From Oxalobacteraceae bacterium OTU3CAMAD1 (GTDB taxonomy: Bacteria; Pseudomonadota; Gammaproteobacteria; Burkholderiales; Burkholderiaceae_D): a DNA stretch of 64,000 nucleotides. The translations under genes were made by a program, and so were the position numbers. Where the stretch lies: NCBI GenBank assembly GCA_024123915.1, contig CP099650.1:3968001-4032000 (forward strand), in the 5' to 3' direction. How positions within the stretch are numbered: the stretch's first letter is position 1; each line of letters starts with the position of its first letter. The notes under the pieces were generated by a model. That model did not search any database. It was not told the DNA's origin and saw nothing but the letters and a program-made list of their open reading frames with translations. Below are positions 6,812 to 41,118 of the stretch, piece after piece.

Positions 6812-6838
6812 GGGGTCGGACCCGACGGGTCCGACCCC
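6812..6838. repeat. Palindromic intergenic repeat GGGGTCGGACCC, copy 1
   Basis: GGGGTCGGACCC (6812-6823), loop GAC, GGGTCCGACCCC (6827-6838): a perfect 12-bp inverted repeat. Flanks AACCCGCAGAGCCAGGC before it and TAAGCG after it recur at the other two copies (21386, 41091). It lies between converging genes and may also stop transcription. Confidence 0.8.
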
Positions 6839-17676: not shown

Positions 17677-17830
17677 GACTTTTTCTAGTTCAACCTCGTA
17701 GTATCGGCTTGCCGTCGCTATCGGCGCGCATGAATTCTAGTTCGGCAACAAGCGGTGCACACGGGTCGATTCTCGCAATAGATGCGGTAAATATCTTGCT
17801 TGTGCGGCGAAAGTGGCGAATAATCACCGC

Positions 17831-18955
17831 ATGAATAGCGGCTATTACACGTATATCTGGCAGGCCCGGGATTGGCCGGCGTGGCGCTTTGAGCTTGCCG
17901 TGCTGGCTACGCCCATGGCCGAGGTGAGCAGGGCGCAGGGGCATTTGGTCGGTCGTCTGGCTGACGTCGGCTTGGTACTGCGCGGCCAGGCAAGTCTGGC
18001 CGCACTGACCGAGGACGTCGTCAAAACCAGCGAAATCGAAGGAGAGGCGCTCAACGTCTCCTCCGTTCGCTCGTCCATCGCCCGTCGTCTTGGCGTCGAC
18101 ATCGGTGCCCTTGCGCCAGTTGATCGCCATGTGGAAGGCGTAGTTGAAATGGTTCTCGATGCGACGGCCAATTGCCACGCGCCGGTCACGCGGGATCGCC
18201 TGTTCGCTTGGCATGCGGCGCTGTTTCCTACCGGGTATTCAGGCCTTTCCAAAATCAATGTCGGTGCCTGGCGCGACGATGTCAACGGCCCGATGCAGGT
18301 GGTCTCCGGTCCCGTCGGCAGGCAACGGGTGCACTTCGAGGCACCTCCCGCAAGCGCGCTTGAAGCTGAAACCGCACTGTTTCTCGACTGGATAGACACG
18401 GATTCAAATGTTCCTCCGCTGATCAAGGCCGGTCTCGGACACTTGTGGCTGGTGACACTGCATCCATTCGACGATGGCAACGGCCGTATCGCGCGCGCCC
18501 TCGGCGATCTGCTGCTGGCGCGCGCCGAGGGATGTCCTCAGCGCTTCTATAGCCTATCCGCGCAAATCCAGCGCCAGCGCAAGGCATACTATGAAATTCT
18601 GGAGCGGACGCAGAAGGGTGCGATGGACGTCACCGAATGGCTTCTGTGGTTTTTCGATGCGCTGAGAAGCGCGGTCGAACAGGCTCATCTCGGTCTCGAT
18701 GTCGTTTTGTGGAAAGCGCGCTTCTGGCGACAATGGGCAGAGGCGCCGATGAACGAGCGCCAGGTCAAGTTGCTCAACAAATTGCTTGATGGCTTTGAAG
18801 GCAAGCTCACGACCAGCAAGTGGGCCGCGATCGCCAAGTGTTCGACCGACACGGCACTGCGTGATATCACCGATCTTGTGCGGCGTGGAGTGCTCCGCAA
18901 AACGGATGCCGGAGGGCGCAGCACCGGTTACGAGTTGAGTGGGCTGGCATTGTGA
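17831..18955 (+). CDS. Fic family protein (class II, DUF4172 N-terminus)
   Basis: A protein of about 374 residues. The Fic core motif HPFDDGNGRIAR begins at His211. The N-terminal part holds YIWQARDWPAW, typical of the DUF4172 domain, and the inhibitory motif T66-x3-E70-G71 (KTSEIEGE), which in class II Fic proteins blocks ATP binding until relieved. A C-terminal winged-helix-like segment (WAAIAKCSTDTALRDITDLVRRGVLRK) may bind DNA. Fic enzymes transfer AMP to Ser/Thr/Tyr of target proteins. A GTG at 17813 is an alternative start; the ATG is preferred because the domain begins right after it. It stands alone at the edge of an AT-richer patch. Confidence 0.9.
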   Translation: MNSGYYTYIWQARDWPAWRFELAVLATPMAEVSRAQGHLVGRLADVGLVLRGQASLAALTEDVVKTSEIEGEALNVSSVRSSIARRLGVDIGALAPVDRHVEGVVEMVLDATANCHAPVTRDRLFAWHAALFPTGYSGLSKINVGAWRDDVNGPMQVVSGPVGRQRVHFEAPPASALEAETALFLDWIDTDSNVPPLIKAGLGHLWLVTLHPFDDGNGRIARALGDLLLARAEGCPQRFYSLSAQIQRQRKAYYEILERTQKGAMDVTEWLLWFFDALRSAVEQAHLGLDVVLWKARFWRQWAEAPMNERQVKLLNKLLDGFEGKLTTSKWAAIAKCSTDTALRDITDLVRRGVLRKTDAGGRSTGYELSGLAL

Positions 18956-19041
18956 ACGCTCGCACTTGGCAGTGGATTGCAAAGGTGCAGTTAGCGTCAG
19001 ACTGGAACAAACTGGCAGGGGTTTTTACGAGGTGAACCATC

Positions 19042-20190
19042 ATGCTGATCAGACGCTGCGCCGTGCTGTTTGTCGAGCCCCGCGAGGATCTCGATATCGA
19101 TTGGTCTTCGCTGTTCGCCGGCGAGAGCGCGCTGGGCTCGACGGTGCGCTGGATCGCGCTGGCGCCGCATCTTGGCGCCGAGGTCGAGATCGGCAGCGAC
19201 GAGATGCTGGCCCTGGGTGGCATCAGCCTGACCTTGTGGCAGGAGCGCGCCGTCTGCGAGCGGAAGTCGTCGGCCGACGTCATCGGGCGTTTGCTCGCGC
19301 ACGGCCTGCTAATGAGTGATGCGCCCGAGGGCGCGGCGATTCGGGAACGCGACGAGGTACTGCGTTCGCAGCACTGGCGGCCGTTATCCGCCGCCGCGCA
19401 TATGTTTAGCCGCTGGGGCGATATGCGGGTCGATAAGGGCATGCAGTTTCCCAGCTTTGAGGAGCTGGTTGAGTCGTACGGCACGCCGCCGGGCCCCGCC
19501 ATCGAACGCGGCGCCGCCGCTGATGCGTTGATGTTGCCGGTTCCGGAGCGCGCCGGGTTGGACGAGACGCTTTTCAAACGCTACACCGGCCGTAATTTCG
19601 ATCCGGTCGCCACGCTGCCATTGGCCACCGCCTCGCGTTTGCTGCAACGCGCCTTCGGCTCGCAGGGCGAGCGCGAGATGGCGCCGGATGCCTTTGTGCT
19701 GAAGAAGCTCAGTCCCTCGGCCGGCGGCCTGCATCCCACGGAGGCGTATGTGCTGGCGCAGCGCGTGGAGGGCGTGGCGCCGGGGTTGTATCACTACCAC
19801 CCGGTGCGGCACGCGCTGGAGCCGCTGGTGGCGATGGATACCACGCAGACGGCGGAGCTGGCGATGCGCATGGTGGCCGATCAGGATTGGTTTGTCGATG
19901 CGCCCATGATGGTGGTGCTGGCGGCGCGCGTGGAACGGAATTTTTGGAAGTACCGTAATCACGCCAAGGCTTATCGGGCGTTGTTGTTGGACGCGGGGCA
20001 TTTGTCGCAGACGTTTTATCTGCTGGCGACGGAGGCGGGGATGCCGGCCTTTGTGACGGCTGCTGTCAATGAGGTGGATATCGAGCGGGCGTTGGGGCTC
20101 GATCCGCTCAAGGATATGGTGGTGGCGGTTTGTGGGTGCGGCGCGGCGTCGGGGGCGCAGGATACGGTGGAGATGCGGTATGAGCCGTGA
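19042..20190 (+). CDS. SagB-like nitroreductase-fold peptide maturation dehydrogenase
   Basis: A 382-residue protein in two parts. Residues 1-110 (MLIRRCAVLFVEPREDLDID...) form an N-terminal domain like those in a SagB-related group named putative peptide maturation dehydrogenases. From about 170 comes an FMN-binding SagB/ThcOx domain: RYTGRNFDP, LKKLSPSAGGLHPTEAYVLAQ, GLYHYHP and the C-terminal LDAGHLSQTFYLLATEAG. SagB-type enzymes oxidise azolines in RiPP natural products. RBS GAGGTG precedes the ATG. A leader-peptide-like gene lies 1.2 kb downstream on the other strand; no cyclase gene is adjacent. Fold is sure, the RiPP role is inference from family and context. Confidence 0.82.
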   Translation: MLIRRCAVLFVEPREDLDIDWSSLFAGESALGSTVRWIALAPHLGAEVEIGSDEMLALGGISLTLWQERAVCERKSSADVIGRLLAHGLLMSDAPEGAAIRERDEVLRSQHWRPLSAAAHMFSRWGDMRVDKGMQFPSFEELVESYGTPPGPAIERGAAADALMLPVPERAGLDETLFKRYTGRNFDPVATLPLATASRLLQRAFGSQGEREMAPDAFVLKKLSPSAGGLHPTEAYVLAQRVEGVAPGLYHYHPVRHALEPLVAMDTTQTAELAMRMVADQDWFVDAPMMVVLAARVERNFWKYRNHAKAYRALLLDAGHLSQTFYLLATEAGMPAFVTAAVNEVDIERALGLDPLKDMVVAVCGCGAASGAQDTVEMRYEP

Positions 20191-20221
20191 CGCTGACTTG
20201 GGTTCCTGACGGCGCTTGCAT

Positions 20222-20247
20222 GGCGGATTACGCTTCGCTAATCCGCC
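20222..20247. repeat. Palindromic intergenic repeat GGCGGATTA, copy 1
   Basis: GGCGGATTA (20222-20230), 8-nt loop, TAATCCGCC (20239-20247), followed by CTACG. A second, inverted copy is at 29709-29738. It is a REP-like element of a type common in many proteobacteria. Confidence 0.75.
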
Positions 20248-20290
20248 CTACGTGTTTATGATGTATGGTTGACTCATACATCCTCCGCCT

Positions 20291-21340
20291 ATGAAAACTC
20301 TTTTTTTGCTGCCGGTCGTTTTGTTCGCCGGGTGCGCGTTTGCCGATGCACCTTCCGCCACTTGGGACAAGCAGGCTAGCGGCGTCGCCGGTCGCTTGCG
20401 CGGCGTGAGCGCTGTCGATGACAATGTGGCCTGGGCCAGCGGCGCGGGCAACGCCGTGCTGCGCACCGCCGACGGTGGCGCCACCTGGCGCAGCCTTACA
20501 CCGCCGGTCGATGCCCAGGCCACGCCGCTCGATTTCCGCGATATCGACGCCGTCGACGCTCGCACCGCCTACTTGTTGAGCATCGGGCCGTCCACGGCCT
20601 CTCGCATCTTCAAGACCACCGACGCCGGCGTCACCTGGACGCAGCAGTATGTCAATCCCGATGAAAAAGGCTTCCTCGACGCGATGACGTTTTGGGACGC
20701 GGACAGTGGCCTGGTGATCGGCGATTCGATCGACGGCCGCTTTCAGATACTGCGCACCGCCGACGGCGGCGCGACATGGAGCAAGATTCCCGCCGCCGCG
20801 CTGCCGCCCGCGTTGCCGAACGAGGGATCATTCTCGGCCAGCGGGTCCAACATCGCCGTGGTCGGCCGCGACGACGCCTGGATCGCCACCGGCAGCCGGG
20901 TGCTGCACACCGGCGATCGCGGTAAAACCTGGAGCGTCGTCCAGGCGCCGCTCGATACCAGCGAGTCGGCCGGCATCTTTTCGATCACGTTCCGCGATGC
21001 GCTGCATGGCGTGATCGTCGGCGGCGACTACAAGCGCGAAGGCGCGGCCGTCAACAACGTTGCCGTCACCAGCGATGGCGGAAAGAGCTGGTCGCTGGTG
21101 CGTGAAAAAGGATTGTCCGGTTACCGCTCGGCGGTGAAGTACTTGCCCGGGGGCGGCAAGTCGCTGGTGGCCGTCGGTCCGTCAGGCGCCGATGTGTCGC
21201 GGGATGACGGCAGGACGTGGACGCCGTTGGCGTATCCGGCATCGGTCGCCGGCTTCGACGCGATCAGCTTTGCCGCCGGCCGCAAGACGGCTTGGGCCAG
21301 CGGCAACAAGGGCGAACTGGCGAAAGTGAATTTTAAATAA
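20291..21340 (+). CDS. Exported YCF48/BNR-repeat beta-propeller protein
   Basis: A 349-residue exported protein. The signal peptide MKTLFLLPVVLFAGCAFADA could be cleaved by signal peptidase I after ADA, or form a weak lipobox (FAGC). The body has repeated Asp-box-like units (RTADGGATW at two places, KTTDAGVTW, HTGDRGKTW, TSDGGKSW, RDDGRTW), each ending a propeller blade, as in YCF48/HCF136 and sialidase-like proteins. No catalytic residues can be named. Other YCF48 proteins aid photosystem assembly or bind ligands in the periplasm. It lies between the SagB-like gene and the leader-peptide-like gene but shows no RiPP-specific feature. Confidence 0.8.
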   Translation: MKTLFLLPVVLFAGCAFADAPSATWDKQASGVAGRLRGVSAVDDNVAWASGAGNAVLRTADGGATWRSLTPPVDAQATPLDFRDIDAVDARTAYLLSIGPSTASRIFKTTDAGVTWTQQYVNPDEKGFLDAMTFWDADSGLVIGDSIDGRFQILRTADGGATWSKIPAAALPPALPNEGSFSASGSNIAVVGRDDAWIATGSRVLHTGDRGKTWSVVQAPLDTSESAGIFSITFRDALHGVIVGGDYKREGAAVNNVAVTSDGGKSWSLVREKGLSGYRSAVKYLPGGGKSLVAVGPSGADVSRDDGRTWTPLAYPASVAGFDAISFAAGRKTAWASGNKGELAKVNFK

Positions 21341-21385
21341 ACTGCAAACCCGCATAGCTAAACGATGGGCCGGCGTTGGCGCAAT

Positions 21386-21412
21386 GGGGTCGGACCCCGC
21401 GGGTCCGACCCC
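21386..21412. repeat. Palindromic intergenic repeat GGGGTCGGACCC, copy 2
   Basis: GGGGTCGGACCC (21386-21397), loop CGC, GGGTCCGACCCC (21401-21412), a perfect 12-bp stem. Flanks on the right (GCCTGGCCCTGTGGGTTGGG) are the reverse complement of the left flank of copy 1, so this copy lies in inverted orientation. It separates two converging genes. Confidence 0.8.
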
Positions 21413-21435
21413 GCCTGGCCCTGTGGGTTGGGCGT

Positions 21436-21690
21436 TCAGCGCTGGCCTGATAGGAAGAACGGAATCGCGCCGGCGGCGTTTTCCAGTTTGCCTTTGATCG
21501 CATGACGATTGGCGGCGAGGACTTCTTTCGACGGCAGGCTGCGCAGGGCCGGAATCTGGGCGGCGTCGATGCGGATGCCCAAGCCATCGAGCGCAATTTG
21601 CGGATCGCTCAGGAAGCTCTGGCGGAAGCTGTCGTCGCCGGAGAGTTTGGACAGCAGCAGGTCGAGATCTTGCGGGGAATGCGAGGCCAT
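21436..21690 (-). CDS. NHLP-like RiPP precursor peptide candidate
   Basis: An 84-residue small protein starting MASHSPQDLDLLLSKLSGDD, then FRQSFLSDPQIALDGLGI. This pattern (LL.KL..D..FR..FL.DP..AL..LGI) is that of leader peptides derived from nitrile hydratase alpha subunit or Nif11, which guide RiPP-modifying enzymes. The C-terminal part (NRHAIKGKLENAAGAIPF and FLSGQR) would be the core; it has no Cys and only Ser as a possible cyclisable residue, which is odd for an azoline substrate. A good RBS (AAAGGTGA) precedes the ATG. The SagB-like dehydrogenase 1.2 kb away makes a shared pathway likely, not proven. Confidence 0.65.
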   Translation of the reverse strand: MASHSPQDLDLLLSKLSGDDSFRQSFLSDPQIALDGLGIRIDAAQIPALRSLPSKEVLAANRHAIKGKLENAAGAIPFFLSGQR

Positions 21691-21795
21691 GTGGTCACCT
21701 TTCGTATGCGGGGAGCAGGTTGATGCGTATCAATACGCAAGTCCATGCTAGGACAAAGCCTGACCGACCTCAAGAAATTTCAACATAGCAATATG

Positions 21796-24700
21796 CTAGT
21801 GAGTTTGCCCGGTGTTTTCCATGCTCGCGGGCGGCGCCGCTGATTGTTTGGCGATCTCGTCGTGCGCGCTGTGCATGACGATCTCGAAGGCCTGCTCGAA
21901 ATCGCTCAACAGTTGCGGCAACGCGGTTTCCCGCTCTCTGAGACGCTCCTCCAGCGCCGTCGCCGCCTTAAAAAGATCGGGCGCGGAAATGTTTCCAGCC
22001 GCGCCACGGATCTTGTGTACAAGTTCGGCCGCCCGGGCCAGATCGCCGGCGTCGATTGCATCATGAATGTGTTGCAAAATGGCGCCGAAGTCGTGGGCGA
22101 ACAGGCTCAAAAGCCGCGTCAGCAGGGCGCTGTGGCCGCCGAGGCGTTCCAGCGCGGCGTTCATGTCGATGCCCGGGCGCGCGCTTGGCGGCGCCGCCGG
22201 CGGCAGGCCCGCGCCGCGCGGCGCGTCCGGCTCGTCGATCGGCGCGCGTGCCGCATCGTGCTCCACCCAGGTCGCCAGCACGGCGTACAGCGTGTCCGGA
22301 TCGATAGGCTTGGTGACGTAGTCGTTCATGTCCATGTTCAGGCAGCGCTCGCGGTAGCCGGCCACCGCGTGCGCCGTCATGGCGATGATCGGCAGCGCGG
22401 CGTGGCGTTCGTCGGCGCGGATCAGCGCCGTGGCCTGGTAGCCGTCCATGTCGGGCATTTGTATGTCCATCAGCACCGCGTCGTACTGGCGCGCGTGGAC
22501 CATGCGCGCCGCCTCCTCGCCGCTGGCGGCCAGGTCGACCCGGACCCCGGCGCGCTGCAGGATTTCGCTCGCCACCTGCTGGTTGATGCTGTTGTCGTCG
22601 ACCACCAGTACAAGCGCGCCGCGTATGCGCTGGACCGCGAACGAGGGCGGGGCGGGCAGCTTGACGGCGGGCTGTCCGGCGTCCAGGCCGAGCGCCGTCA
22701 TGATCGCGCTGCGCAGCAGGTAGGGATTGGCCGGCTTGTCGATGAAGGGCATGCGGCGGGTCTGTTCGGCGGCCTCGATATTGTGCTCGCGCGCGTAGGC
22801 GGTGACCATGAGGATGGCCGGCGGCACGGCCAGCGCCGGGTCGGCGCCGATGCGGCGCAGCGTTTCGATGCCGTCCAGCTCCGGCATGTCGGCGTCGATC
22901 AGCAGGATGTCGTACGGTTCCAGCTGCAGCGCGGCCAGCGCCGCCGCGCCGGAGGCCACGGCGCGCGCCTGCAGTCCAAGGCCGCCCAATTGGATCTGCA
23001 GCATGTGGCGCGCCGCTTCGCAATCGTCGGCCACCAGCACGCGCTTGCCGAGCGCCTGCGCCGGAACCGGTAACAGGCGCGGCGTCTGGTCGGCGGCCGG
23101 TTGCAGCTGCACGGTGAAACTGAAGCTGCTGCCGACACCGGGCTCGCTGTCGACGGCGATCACGCCGCCCATTTTGCGCACCAGCTGCTGCGAGATCGCC
23201 AGTCCCAATCCGGTGCCGCCGTAGAGCCGCGTGGTGCTGGCGTCGGCCTGGGCGAAGGCCTGGAACAGGCGCGCCTGCTGCTCGCCGCTGATGCCAAGGC
23301 CGCTGTCTTCCACCGTGAAGCGCAGCGCGAACGCGCCGGGGACCACGTCGGCGGCGGCCAGGTTCGGGTCCAGCTCGACCCGCAGTTCGATGTGGCCGCG
23401 CACGGTGAACTTGAGCGCGTTGCCCACCAGGTTGACCAGGATCTGGCTCAGTCGCAGCGGGTCGCCCAGCAGGTTGGCCGGCACGTCCGGGGCCGACCAG
23501 ATCACCAGTTCCAGACCCCGTTCGGCGGCGCGCCACGAGAACAGGTCGGCCAGCTGGTTGAGCGTGTCGGGAAGGTCGAAGGGCAGGGCCTCCAGTTCCA
23601 GCTTGCCCGATTCGATCTTGGAGAAGTCCAGCACATCGTTGATGATCTCGAGCAGGCTTTGTCCCGCGCGGCCGATCTTGCGGAAGTAGTCCAGCGGTTG
23701 CGGCGGCAGGTCGAGGTGGGTGCCAAGTCCGGCGAAGCCGAGGATGGCGTTCATCGGCGTGCGGATCTCGTGGCTAATGTTGGCCAGGAACTCGCTCTTG
23801 GCGCGGGTGGCCGCTTCGGCGTTGGCGCGCGCCTGCTCGATCATGCGCAGCGCCCGCGCCTTCTGGTAGGCCGACACGAACGGCTCCTTCAGCGCCTTGA
23901 GCAGATCGAGGTCGCTCGCTTCGAACTTGGTCTGGTACTGGTAGTTCTCGAAGATCAGATAGCCCTCGACCTGGCCGTCGATCACCACGCGCACCGCCAG
24001 CATCGCGCAGACGTCGCCCGGCAGCGAATTGTGATGGTAGATTTCGAAGATGTCCGGCGCGATCATGGATTCGGGCGGGGCGTAGCGCAGCTCCGCCTGG
24101 CGCAGGTCGATGCTGTAGGCGTCGGCGGCGGCGTCGATGCGGCCCCAGGCCGCGCGCAAGGTCAGCGTCTCGGTGCCGGCTTCGCGCACCAGCGCCAGGG
24201 CCGAATCGATGCCCTTGATGACGGTGGATTCCTGCAGGATGGTCTGCAGCAGCGCGTCGAAGTCCAGCTGCTCGTTGATCGATTTGACGATGGCGTTGAG
24301 TTTTTCCAGATGCCGGGTGCGCGAGTAGACCAGCGCCTGCAGGACCTCGCCCTTGTTGTGCAGTTGTCTGACGCGCCAGCGCACCAGCGCCCATGCCAGC
24401 AGGCCGGCGGCCAGCAGGTAGCCGGTCCGGGCCCACCAGGTCTGGTGCCAGGCCGGCAGCACCACCACCCGCAGCGACAGTTCATCGACGTTCCACAGGC
24501 CCTCGCGGTTGCTGCCGCGCAGGCGCAGGCGGTAGGTGCCGGGCGGCAGGCTGTTGTAGCTGGCCACGCGGCGGCTGGCGTCGGCCTCGGTCCAGCGGCG
24601 GTCGAAGCCCTCCAGCAGATAGGCGTAGCGGTTGCGTTGTGGCGCGGAGTAGTCCAGCGCCGCCAGTTCCACCTCGAAGTTCTGGGTGTCGGGCGTCAGG

Positions 24701-26958
24701 GTCAGGGTCGGACCTTCGGGGGCGCTGAGCTGGTCGGGCGTGAGCGCGCGCTGGTCGACCCGCACGGCGCTGATCACCAGCGGCGGACGATAGGCCCAGT
24801 CGTTCAGGCGCGCGGAGTCCACCACCGCCATGCCGGAGGTGGCGCCGAACAGCAGATCGCGTTCGTTGGTGACGGTGCTGGCGCCGATGAAGAAGGTGCG
24901 GAACGCCAGCCCGTCGGCGCGGGCCAGCGCGCGCGCCTTGAGCGTGGTGGCGTCGACCACGGCGATGCTGTCCGAAGTGGCGGCCCAGATGCGGCCGGCG
25001 GGGTCCGACTGCAAGGCCATGATGGTGCCGGTCGACAGTCCCTCGGCGACGCCCACCCGTTCGAACACCGGCGCGCCCCTGGCATCGCGCCCGGTCATCA
25101 CGCAGATGCCGCCGCCGTAGGTGCCCACCCAAAGCCGGCCGCGCCCGTCGATCACCAGCGAACTGATAACGGCCTCGGAGAGCGCGGTGGGGAGGGCCGG
25201 CGCGGCGTGGATCTGCTCCACCTTGCCGGTCGCCGGATCGAGGCGATTGAGGCCGTTGCGGGTGGCGATCCACAGCGCGCCGTCGGCATCGGGGATCACG
25301 GCGTGGATGCGGTTGTCGGTCAGCCCGCCGCCCTCCGGCGGTCCCTGGACGTAGCGCTTGATGGTGCCGGCGGCGACATCGTAGCGCAGCAGTCCTTCGA
25401 AAGTGCCGAGCCAGAGCTGGCCGTCGCGCTTCAGGATGGTGCCGATGCGCGGATACTGGTTTTCCTGCGGCAGGGCGATGCGTTTGGCGGCCCGCCCGCC
25501 GCCCCGGGTGCGGTACAAACCGAGCTGGGTGCCGATCCAGGCCTCGCCGGGCTCCGCCTCGGCCAGCGCCAGCACCACGCGGTTGGGCAGCGCCGTTTCC
25601 GGCTGGTGCGGGTCGGGGCGCAGCGCCGCGCGCCGGGTGCCGTCGGTCGCCACGATGTCGATGCCCTGGTCGGCCAGCGCGATCCACACCTCGCGGCGGC
25701 TGTCGGTCATCAGCGCGGTGACGGCCGCCTCCAGCTTGCCCTCGCCGCCGAACACCGAGTCGATGCTCTCGCTGTGCGGATCGTGGATGTCGACGCCGCG
25801 CTCGGTGCTGACCCAGATCATGCCGCTGCGGTCGCGCAGCAGCGCGGCGGTGCGGTCGTTACTGAGGCTGAGCGGCACCGCCGGCTGGTGCAGTATGCGG
25901 TTGCTGCGGCCCGTGGCGGTGTGATACTCGACGATGCCGCCGCCGTAGGTGCCGGCCCACCAGGTGCCCGGCGTGCTCTCGGCGACCGACAGCACCATGT
26001 TCGATTCCATGTCCTTGACGCCCTTGAGCGCGACCAGCTGACCCCTGTCGGCCAGCGGATCGACCGTGCCGATGCCGCTTTTGAGCGTGCCGAAAGCGAT
26101 CTGTCCCCGGCTGTTCTCGCCCAGCGCCATGACGGTGTCGCTCCAGCCGCCCTGGCCGGCGGCGCCGACCGGAATGGCGGCGATGGCGCCGCCGGGTTTC
26201 ATCCGCGCCAGTCCGGTGCCGGTACCGATCCACAGGTTGCCCGAACGGTCCGCCAGCAGCGCGCGGACCTGGTTGTCCGGCAGGCCCGGCGCGGTCTCGC
26301 GGGTATGGCTAGTCACGGTGCCGGCGATGGCGTCGTAGAATTTGAGGCCGGCGGGCGTGCCTATCCACAGATTGCCCTTGGCGTCGCTGGCGATCGCGCT
26401 CACCAGGCCATGGCTCAACTCCTCGTTGAGGCGGACGAAGTGTTCCTTGCGATTGTCGTACATCGCCAGGCCGGCGGCGGCGGTGCCGACCCACAGGCGG
26501 CCGCGCGCGTCGACGTGCAGGGTTTGAATGAAATCGCCGGGAAGGCTGGTGGGGTCGGTGGCGTTGTGGTGGAAGCTGCGCACGCGGTAACCGTCCCAGC
26601 GCGCCAGCCCGCTCTGCGTGCCGATCCAGATGTAGCCGTCGCCGTCCTGCGCCAGCGCCATGCTGACCGGATGCGGCAAGCCTTGTTCGAGTCCGAGATG
26701 TTCAAACAGCGGGGTGGCCAATTTATCCCAGCGCTCGGCGCCGGCCCGGGCGGGGCCGAACGACATCGCGCCGGCCAGAAGGCACAGGCATGCCGCCGGC
26801 GCGAAGGCGACACGGGACAGCGGGACGACACAGCATAGCCGAAAAAGTCGACAAAGGGCGGCGATACAGGCATGCGGTGATAGGGCGTGGGCGTTCAAAT
26901 CAGGGCACTCTCCCGGCAAGTGATTATCAGCATACGGAATAGCCGGCCGAAAGTCCAT
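21796..26958 (-). CDS. Hybrid two-component sensor with beta-propeller ligand domain, two receivers and HPt
   Basis: A protein of about 1720 residues holding a whole phosphorelay. After a signal peptide ([14 protein letters not shown]) come two seven-bladed reg_prop propellers (repeats such as [15 protein letters not shown]), a Y_Y_Y domain ([18 protein letters not shown]), one membrane helix near residue 850, a GAF domain, HisKA with His1063 ([13 protein letters not shown]), HATPase, receiver 1 with Asp1355 ([12 protein letters not shown]), receiver 2 with Asp1498 ([11 protein letters not shown]), and HPt with His1648 ([11 protein letters not shown]). The layout resembles Bacteroides hybrid systems that sense glycan fragments, but ends in HPt rather than AraC. 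A TTG at 26991 is a possible earlier start. No partner regulator is adjacent. Confidence 0.9.
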
Positions 26959-27029
26959 GCTTGCGGCGCGAATTCGCCGCCGCTTGTACAATCGCCGTCA
27001 GCATCGCCTTACAAGGAATTACCCTCCCT

Positions 27030-28112: not shown

Positions 28113-29732
28113 ATGAAACTCCCTCAATTGAAGACCGGCGCGCGCGTGCTGGCGTCTTTCGCCATGCTGCTGTTCGCGATGGCCTGCATGTCGGCCGTGT
28201 CGCTGTGGCGCCTGCAATCGGCCAACGACACCGCGTCCAACCTGGTCGATGAAAAGCTGGCCAAGCAGCAGCTGACGTCCGAGCTGCTGGGCGTGGCCGA
28301 GCTCAATGGGCTGCGGGCGATTTCAATCGCCCGCAGCGACAGCCTGGAAGTGGGCGACATCTTCCATGCGCAGCTGGTCGCCGGTGAAAAGGTGGCGGCG
28401 GCGATGGACCGCCAGTTGGCCGCCATGCCGGCGGACGGCGTGGAACACGAGCTGCTGCGCGCCGTCGGCGCCAGGCGGGCGGCGTACGCGGCCCTGCGCG
28501 CCGACTTGTTCAAATTGAAGGACGGCGGACGGATACAGGAGGTGAGCGACTTGCTCGACACCCGCCTCGCCGCCGCCTTCGGCGCGTACACCGGCGCGCT
28601 GCAAAAACTGCTGGCGTATCAAACGCAGGAGGCCAGGACGATGGCGGCGCTGTCGGCCAGCCAGTATCGAAGCAGCCGCGCGCTGCTGATCGGGCTCGGA
28701 CTGGCCACCCTTGCATTGGGCGCGGTGCTGGCGCTGATGCTGACGCGCAGTATCGTGCGTCCGCTGACGCGGGCGGTGGCGCTGGCCGAACAGGTGGCGG
28801 CCGGCGAGCTGCATGCCGTCATCGAGCATGGACGCGGCGACGAGATCGGCCAACTGTTCGACGCGTTGAGCCACATGACGGGCCGCCTGGCCCACACCGT
28901 CGGCCGGGTGCGCGACGGCGCGGTGGCGATCGACTCGGCCTCGCGCGAGATCGCCAACGGCAATATGGATCTGTCGCGCCGCACCGAACATCAGGCCGGG
29001 GCGCTGCAGGAGACCGCGTCGGCGATGGTGCAACTGACGTCGGCGGTGCGCGAAAACAGCGGTAACGCGCGCCATGCCAACGCGCTGGCCTTGTCGGCGT
29101 CGGAGGTGGCGGGCAAGGGCGGCAAGGTGGTGTCCGAAGTGGTGCGCACGATGGCCGGCATCAACGACTACGCGCACAAGATCGTCGACATCACCGGCGT
29201 GATCGACAGCATCGCCTTCCAGACCAATATCCTGGCGTTGAACGCCGCCGTCGAAGCGGCGCGCGCGGGCGAGCAGGGACGCGGCTTCGCGGTTGTGGCC
29301 TCCGAGGTGCGCAATCTGGCGCAGCGTTCGGCGGCGGCGGCCAAGGAGATCAAAAAGCTGATCAACGACTCGGCCGAACAAATCGCCAGCGGCAGCGTGC
29401 TGGCCGAAAACGCCGGCGCGACGATGGACGAAATCGTACTGAGCGTGCGCAAGGTGACCGCCATCATGGCCGCGATCAGCACCGCCAGCGCCGAGCAGGA
29501 ACACGGCATCGGGCAGGTCACCACCGCCATCGGCGAGATGGACGGCGTCACGCAGCAGAACGCCGCGCTGGTGGAGGAGGCGGCAGCGGCGGCGGCAGCG
29601 ATGCAGGCGCAAGCGAAGGAACTGGCGCAACTGGTGGGCTCCTTCAAAATCGACGCCACCAGCGCAAAACCACCGATGTCAACGAAACCAAGTATACCCA
29701 GGATCCACGTAGGGCGGATTAGCGCAGCGTAA
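28113..29732 (+). CDS. Methyl-accepting chemotaxis protein
   Basis: A 539-residue class receptor. Two membrane helices ([21 protein letters not shown] and [21 protein letters not shown]) bracket a four-helix-bundle ligand domain of about 150 residues. HAMP follows ([22 protein letters not shown]), then the signalling domain whose hairpin tip [22 protein letters not shown] is diagnostic for CheA/CheW contact. No CheR-binding pentapeptide is seen. The last codons (VGRISAA and stop) come from a palindromic repeat that overlaps the gene end, so the C-terminus has been replaced or extended by repeat insertion. The ligand is unknown. Confidence 0.93.
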
Positions 29733-29738
29733 TCCGCC
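29709..29738. repeat. Palindromic repeat GGCGGATTA, copy 2, overlapping a gene end
   Basis: GTAG then GGCGGATTA (29713-29721), 8-nt loop, TAATCCGCC (29730-29738). It is inverted relative to the copy at 20222 and supplies the last six codons and the stop of the chemoreceptor gene. Confidence 0.75.
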
Positions 29739-41090: not shown

Positions 41091-41118
41091 GGGGTCGGAC
41101 CCTACCGGGTCCGACCCC
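41091..41118. repeat. Palindromic intergenic repeat GGGGTCGGACCC, copy 3
   Basis: GGGGTCGGACCC (41091-41102), 4-nt loop, GGGTCCGACCCC (41107-41118), with AACCCGCACGGCCATAC on the left and TAAGCG on the right, as in copy 1. It lies between two converging genes. Confidence 0.8.

Follow-up and report, generated by a model that had tools for sequence, protein, structure and literature searches.

A 64,000-nucleotide stretch of the genome of Oxalobacteraceae bacterium OTU3CAMAD1 (contig CP099650.1, positions 3,968,001 to 4,032,000; here called the window, in whose own positions all coordinates are given) carries a gene for a SagB-like dehydrogenase and, converging on it, a gene for a small protein related to nitrile hydratase leader peptide (NHLP) precursors. 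The locus raises the question of what such a pair makes and what its product is for. A sequence-only reading had taken it for a candidate system for a ribosomally synthesised and post-translationally modified peptide (RiPP), from which the neighbouring cyclase was missing. Comparison of the window and its own genome (G000) with related loci leads us to propose, with a probability of about 0.5, that the cassette encodes a leader-guided, oxidised peptide signal read by interchangeable transmembrane receptors. The pair and its predicted receptor are linked and co-inherited, a point that we hold with high confidence.

A RiPP-type precursor and dehydrogenase

The genes for the dehydrogenase (19042..20190, + strand) and the precursor (21436..21690, − strand) were both found where the sequence-only reading had placed them, in convergent orientation. 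The former encodes a SagB-like peptide maturation dehydrogenase of 382 amino acids (aa), in which an N-terminal part (about residues 1-165) is joined to a nitroreductase/SagB domain, and which scored 545.4 bits against the NCBIfam model TIGR04511 (cut-off 240) over profile positions 1-380 of 380. The suspected SagB/ThcOx similarity was borne out by the SagB-domain model TIGR03605 (120.6 bits, cut-off 78.4), by the nitroreductase family PF00881 (75 bits), which places the protein among the SagB-type flavin oxidases, and by its relatives in the PDB, namely CyaGox, McbC and BmdC. Residues from about 96 onward aligned to CyaGox, and the alignment revealed an FWKY motif common to the two proteins, into which Lys303 and Tyr304 of the dehydrogenase fall; both residues were invariant in 41 homologues, and we take them to be the catalytic Lys-Tyr pair of SagB-type oxidases. 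The N-terminal profile matched no known domain in Pfam and PDB sequence searches, and the same searches gave nothing usable for a RiPP recognition element in this part.

The 84-aa product of the second gene is an NHLP-related RiPP precursor that scored 72.9 bits against the NCBIfam model TIGR04509 (cut-off 34). It resembles the nitrile-hydratase-leader precursors in the helix pattern of its leader but scored only 16.9 bits against their classical model, TIGR03793, under the cut-off of 50.9. The leader motif comprises residues 6-23 (PQDLDLLLSKLSGDDSFR; 21622..21675, − strand), and a profile of 41 precursors picked out from the PDB, at E 3e-4, an alpha chain of nitrile hydratase, as an NHLP-type leader predicts. 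The leader pattern noticed in the sequence was thus upheld, and with the TIGR04509 and TIGR04511 cut-offs both exceeded, the RiPP-type pair was confirmed. No paper bearing the names TIGR04509 to TIGR04511 or the term 'peptide modification system cyclase' was found in the literature searched, outside of which lie subscription papers and preprints.

The pair is linked to a propeller-sensor hybrid kinase

Just outside the region to which the sequence-only reading was confined (19042..21690) lies the gene for a hybrid sensor histidine kinase (21796..26991, − strand), the proposed receptor, which is 1731 aa long when counted from a mechanically assigned TTG whose status as the true start is uncertain. 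A hydrophobic N-terminal region is followed by a Reg_prop propeller, Y_Y_Y, HisKA, HATPase, two receivers and Hpt. A transmembrane (TM) segment after Y_Y_Y (WWA..GY... or similar) exceeded the hydropathy threshold in five of ten kinases (L048, L060, L054, L046 and L043); the window kinase itself fell below it, and its TM segment was placed by homology. When five sensors of this subfamily were scanned with Pfam, those of the window, L094, L044 and L046 ended in kinase-phosphorelay domains, and that of L092 ended in GGDEF, with a precursor and a dehydrogenase alongside. The set of sensor and kinase domains is identical to that of Reg_prop/Y_Y_Y hybrid two-component sensors at large; the subfamily of the window differs in being tied to a peptide gene and a putative modifying enzyme.

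Linkage was assessed in a set of 60 genomes of Duganella, the genus being taken from the names of the nearest loci. TIGR04509 matched 41 genes in 31 of the 60 and TIGR04511 matched 39 genes in exactly the same 31, so that the pairing is beyond chance, the significance of such associations being overstated if these mutually related genomes are treated as independent. Within 5 kb, a precursor lay near 38 of the 39 dehydrogenases, and a dehydrogenase near 38 of the 41 precursors. For the sensors, up to 13 candidates were scored per genome and matches were taken at E ≤ 1e-100. Among the matches listed, 51 belonged to the subfamily (at least 49% identity) and 39 of them adjoined a precursor, so that 39 of the 41 precursors had a subfamily sensor alongside, one of these being GGDEF-ended; the weaker propeller-sensor matches (at most 43% identity), again among those listed, were never near a precursor (0 of 47). 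The subfamily occurred, among the matches listed, in 32 of the 60 genomes, namely the 31 and G598, where the gene runs off the contig end. Twelve of the listed subfamily sensors had no precursor: those of L077-L086, that of G598 at its contig end and a fragment with a stop in G120:C14. Conversely, the two precursors without a full subfamily sensor were that of G120:C107, at a contig end with a piece of the kinase present, and that of G583:C75, a true exception.

The trio was retained although the flanking genes vary between clades. A comparison of 33 neighbourhood rows (31 distinct, L033 being the same as L047 and L036 as L060) found the precursor near the dehydrogenase in all except L063, at a contig end, and a large hybrid kinase adjoining the pair in every row bar L063, as a piece only at the contig ends of L034 and L045. 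Gene order has also changed: in the clade of the window the precursor comes after the kinase and converges on the dehydrogenase, and in L044, L046, L091 and L093 the precursor runs divergently from the dehydrogenase and the kinase faces it. Two trios of a single genome can be as distant as separate clades, the identities of dehydrogenase, precursor and kinase being 58, 37 and 51% between L060 and L044 and 59, 40 and 45% between L090 and L091, against 80, 58 and 75% between L044 and L091 of different genomes. Pairwise distances over 33 complete loci correlate at 0.956 for dehydrogenase and kinase, 0.949 for dehydrogenase and precursor, and 0.918 for precursor and kinase. The trio thus diverges as a unit.

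The absent cyclase resembles a signalling protein

The NCBIfam system to which the precursor and dehydrogenase of the window belong, both above curated cut-offs, has a third member, TIGR04510, annotated as a cyclase. Its absence had been noted from the sequence, and a genome-wide search found no distant copy, the best-scoring protein of the own genome reaching 24.2 bits where the cut-off is 400. In a family set of 195 genomes, 14 of which carry TIGR04511 above cut-off, TIGR04510 gave no match at E ≤ 1e-20; such a null carries no weight by itself, but the same model matched 63 of 99 Xanthomonadaceae-type genomes (62 above cut-off), a set labelled from homologue names (Xanthomonas, Lysobacter, Stenotrophomonas). 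TIGR04511 was present in 60 of those 99. Within 6 kb, TIGR04510 lay near 64 of 67 dehydrogenases and a dehydrogenase near 62 of 66 TIGR04510 genes, and a precursor was present in all 24 Xanthomonadaceae-type loci analysed (L071-L074 and L100-L119, 23 from that family and L073 from another).

Three TIGR04510 proteins that were scanned measured 841-893 aa, scored 884-1112 bits on their own model and had matches to tetratricopeptide repeats (TPRs), and at its N-terminus each gave a weak match to a lipase/adenylate cyclase model (44-55 bits, cut-off 800). In 25 aligned proteins Asp20 and Asp63 were conserved at 95% or more, at what are presumably the places of the two metal-binding Asp residues. 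Hydropathy profiles of eight of the 25 each showed one TM segment between the cyclase and TPR regions, with conserved Lys/Arg on the cyclase side, from which the TPRs should be outside the cytoplasm. In 22 of the 24 loci (L116 and L117 lacked it) TIGR04510 was adjoined on the same strand by a GGDEF protein with a cyclic nucleotide monophosphate (cNMP)-binding domain, two of the 22 having been checked with Pfam, and an Asn-Glu pair was kept in 20 of the 22. The cNMP-GGDEF neighbour in L111 matched PDB entry 5h5o, which the search record gives only as 'diguanylate cyclase' and which we take to be XC_0249. On these domain features TIGR04510 looks like a nucleotidyl-cyclase-like signalling protein, and its candidacy as a peptide cyclase was rejected, given the nucleotidyl-cyclase-like domain, the single TM helix, the TPRs and the adjacent cNMP-GGDEF protein. 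Its absence accordingly removes no known peptide-modifying step.

The same arrangement is described for Xanthomonas campestris in the available part of An et al. 2013 (PMC3770947), where XC_0250 (886 aa; cyclase 32-191, TPRs 413-625) is reported as a guanylate cyclase and the linked XC_0249 as a diguanylate cyclase enhanced by cyclic GMP (cGMP), the binding site for which contains Asn145-Glu146. TIGR04510 proteins share with this system the cyclase domain, TPRs from about residue 410 and the adjacent cNMP-GGDEF protein with its Asn-Glu pair. Since architecture and neighbour agree, TIGR04510 is probably the XC_0250 family; the family of the window differs in lacking TIGR04510 by the searches made. 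In the available parts of that paper and of PMC8042644 the TPR domain of the cGMP pathway is termed uncharacterised. XC_0251 and XC_0252 do not appear in the available part of the main text of PMC3770947, and neighbour locus tags that we guessed were not found in the literature searched. Near the cassette of the Xanthomonadaceae-type loci we also observed malate synthase (18 of 24) and isocitrate lyase (12 of 24), one protein of each having been checked with Pfam.

In the family of the window, the slot of TIGR04510 is filled by the propeller-sensor hybrid kinase. The earlier remark that a partner cyclase was missing is therefore right as regards TIGR04510, but what is missing is a signalling protein rather than a peptide cyclase, and a sensor kinase stands in its place beside the pair.

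A proposed peptide signal and the regulator alternative

The peptide can be read as a signal because its gene and that of the enzyme travel with a membrane sensor in Duganella and with a membrane cyclase-like protein in relatives of Xanthomonas. The SagB-like dehydrogenase would recognise the precursor through its leader and oxidise the core, which is short, hydrophobic and C-terminal. Once finished, the peptide would leave the cytoplasm and act on the adjacent transmembrane receptor as its ligand or as a partner that sets its activity. In the family of the window this receptor would be the propeller-sensor hybrid histidine kinase, with one locus in which the same sensor carries a GGDEF output; in the Xanthomonadaceae it would be the cyclase-TM-TPR protein with its XC_0250-like architecture, the second messenger of which may drive the cNMP-GGDEF diguanylate cyclase. 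The chances that the mature peptide is in fact the ligand of the co-encoded receptor appear evenly balanced. Somewhat short of even odds, we put forward tentatively the wider scheme, in which the receptors fed by the pair range from a hybrid phosphorelay kinase through a propeller-GGDEF protein to a cyclase-TPR/cNMP-GGDEF cascade, such a peptide is the input of the Xanthomonas cGMP pathway, and SagB chemistry proceeds independently of azolines. Such a scheme would join a RiPP-like family, annotated but undescribed in the literature searched, with a published bacterial cGMP pathway. Were the peptide the ligand, a novel and directly testable class of ribosomal signals would be added to those of Gram-negative bacteria.

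Several observations weigh against a peptide signal. Ten Duganella loci (L077-L086) keep the kinase with the precursor and dehydrogenase both gone; in G583 the precursor and dehydrogenase have no subfamily kinase beside them; and three loci (L087, L088 and L094) combine a precursor with a kinase but show no dehydrogenase nearby, one being encoded elsewhere in their genomes, which in G577 stands alone with neither precursor nor subfamily sensor alongside. A profile search for hidden precursors beside the ten kinase-only loci and the G577 dehydrogenase found none. The distance correlations within the trio carry no neighbour-gene control. Among the Xanthomonadaceae-type genomes, four of the 66 TIGR04510 genes and three of the 67 dehydrogenases lack the other nearby, the cyclase domain PF00211 was matched by one of the three TIGR04510 proteins scanned, and that below threshold, and the cores resemble those of Duganella in hydrophobic character and in little else. 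Finally, no exporter or protease was identified for the system, the own genome having two matches to the C39 peptidase (PF03412); a dedicated C39 exporter was rejected as a candidate, the one match that was classified, on an end-cut stretch, being of HlyB type.

Linkage to a sensor can, moreover, also arise where the sensor is a regulator of the cluster. In this main alternative, which we consider rather unlikely, the kinase or cyclase would sense an outside cue and induce a peptide that is an antimicrobial, a metallophore or a surface factor. Sensors commonly adjoin RiPP clusters, and the persistence of the kinase without the pair in ten loci would fit. So would the upstream region of the precursor gene, which has a conserved promoter-like element of its own (TTGAGG, 17 nt, TAGCAT, GG; 21743..21773, − strand) and, just downstream of the −10-like hexamer, an inverted repeat (GCGTATTGATACGC; 21725..21738, − strand). 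All 18 close loci carried the promoter-like pattern, as did 29 of 41 upstream regions overall; it matched once in the window, against 0.03 expected, and a strict consensus promoter scan of 18900-22000 found none; the GCGT-N-ACGC repeat occurred in 14 of the 18 close loci and in none of the 23 others, and is a possible operator. However, the partner has been kept through changes of flank and gene order despite outputs as different as phosphorelay, GGDEF and a nucleotidyl cyclase-like domain. All ten kinase-only loci, whose kinase neighbours also occur beside trio loci, lie in genomes with a precursor and dehydrogenase elsewhere, and the core is near-invariant in the genus clade, unlike most antimicrobial cores.

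The precursor core and its chemistry

The C-terminus of the precursor is under strong purifying selection. In 16 close homologues the ratio of non-synonymous to synonymous differences (pN/pS) was 0.066 for residues 71-84, the putative core (NAAGAIPFFLSGQR; 21439..21480, − strand), compared with 0.25 for residues 1-40 and 0.38 for 41-70. Residues 6-15 of the leader had no non-synonymous difference at all, and residues 36-45 reached 1.14. An uncut 84-aa protein, oxidised or not, that works whole as a partner regulating either the receptor or the dehydrogenase would be compatible with constraint on both leader motif and C-terminus, with the missing protease and with the lack of an evident double-glycine site in the window precursor. 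It is nevertheless improbable, as a variable middle between constrained ends is the pattern of a leader and a core, and as a dedicated SagB-like enzyme co-occurs.

We propose that the dehydrogenase oxidises a hydrophobic core. The observation that the window core has no Cys and a single Ser was correct, and the Ser is itself not conserved: F78, L80 and G82 were present in at least 90% of 41 homologues, the core Ser in fewer, with a Gly in its place in both L041 and L042, an Ala in L090 and an Asp in L046. Among homologues, none of the core's Cys, Ser and Thr residues was fully conserved, and the conserved core position that a thiazole/oxazole-modified microcin (TOMM) would require was not found in the homologues compared. 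Nor was a dedicated YcaO cyclodehydratase found in the own genome. The two YcaO genes found there (G000:C1:4204915 and 2303711) lie more than 200 kb from the window locus, and both products exceeded the cut-off of the ribosomal S12 accessory family (867.8 and 752.7 bits against 700); the TOMM cyclodehydratase model gave one match, of 33.7 bits, far below its cut-off of 219.25. One of the S12-type YcaO proteins also carries an OsmC domain (TIGR03549, 1471.5 bits). A TOMM azole product was rejected on the grounds that the YcaO genes found are of S12 type only, and azoles would have to be formed without a known enzyme. The dehydrogenase thus shares its FMN-nitroreductase family and FWKY motif with the SagB/McbC/CyaGox azoline oxidases and differs from them in having neither a cyclodehydratase partner that could be found nor a conserved azole-forming residue in its substrate, so that the earlier remark that its chemistry must be unusual still stands. 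SagB-like enzymes beside ATP-grasp genes are described, in the available part of PMC8939145, for some graspetide-type loci. Should the peptide prove to be the ligand, the substrates of the SagB fold would come to include one in which no azole-forming residue is conserved.

An ordinary thiazole/oxazole-type RiPP with its cyclodehydratase encoded elsewhere is hinted at by the SagB domain with its Lys-Tyr pair and by the two YcaO genes, but is very unlikely with both of these of the S12 accessory type, the TOMM match far under cut-off, the core Ser unconserved and several Xanthomonadaceae-type cores devoid of Cys, Ser and Thr in the matching stretch. A redox cofactor derived from the peptide, with synthesis and use both intracellular as for PQQ or mycofactocin, would agree with the strong conservation of the core in the genus clade and with the missing exporter, but has as little to recommend it, since the core differs by family (IPFFLSG in the genus; TTPQLDA, MQPIQLD and VVHCFEAG among the diverse Xanthomonadaceae-type cores) and nine different precursors occur in a single locus, neither of which is expected of a cofactor. 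In that locus, L117 (G634:C2:338000-357900), nine precursor-profile matches whose cores have diverged accompany five dehydrogenase frames and a single TIGR04510 gene, a combination that offers a natural library for pairing cores with enzymes.

The gene between the pair and the local surroundings

Between the converging genes lies one for a YCF48/BNR-type protein (20291..21340, + strand), which, as had been read from the sequence, has a signal-like N-terminus; it is 349 aa long and matches PF14870 and PF02012. Its candidacy as a partner in the system was rejected, the gene being absent between the pair in L047 and L048: it is an insertion specific to the lineage of the window and lies outside the system. 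The RiPP interpretation held for the pair and the models named for it, and needs revision in the meaning given to the cyclase. Upstream of the dehydrogenase, a DUF4172-Fic protein is encoded at 17813-18955, which clusters with no gene of the other neighbourhoods compared; neither it nor the YCF48 gene is common to the trio loci.

Two repeated elements were also observed. A perfect palindromic element, GGCGGATTA-N8-TAATCCGCC, has copies at 20222-20247 and 29713-29738 (0.00 expected by chance) and is found again in L048, between its dehydrogenase and precursor genes. A second, GGGTCGGACCC, forms three paired inverted copies at 6813-6837, 21387-21411 and 41092-41117 (6 matches against 0.04 expected), one pair of which sits directly 3' of the YCF48 gene.

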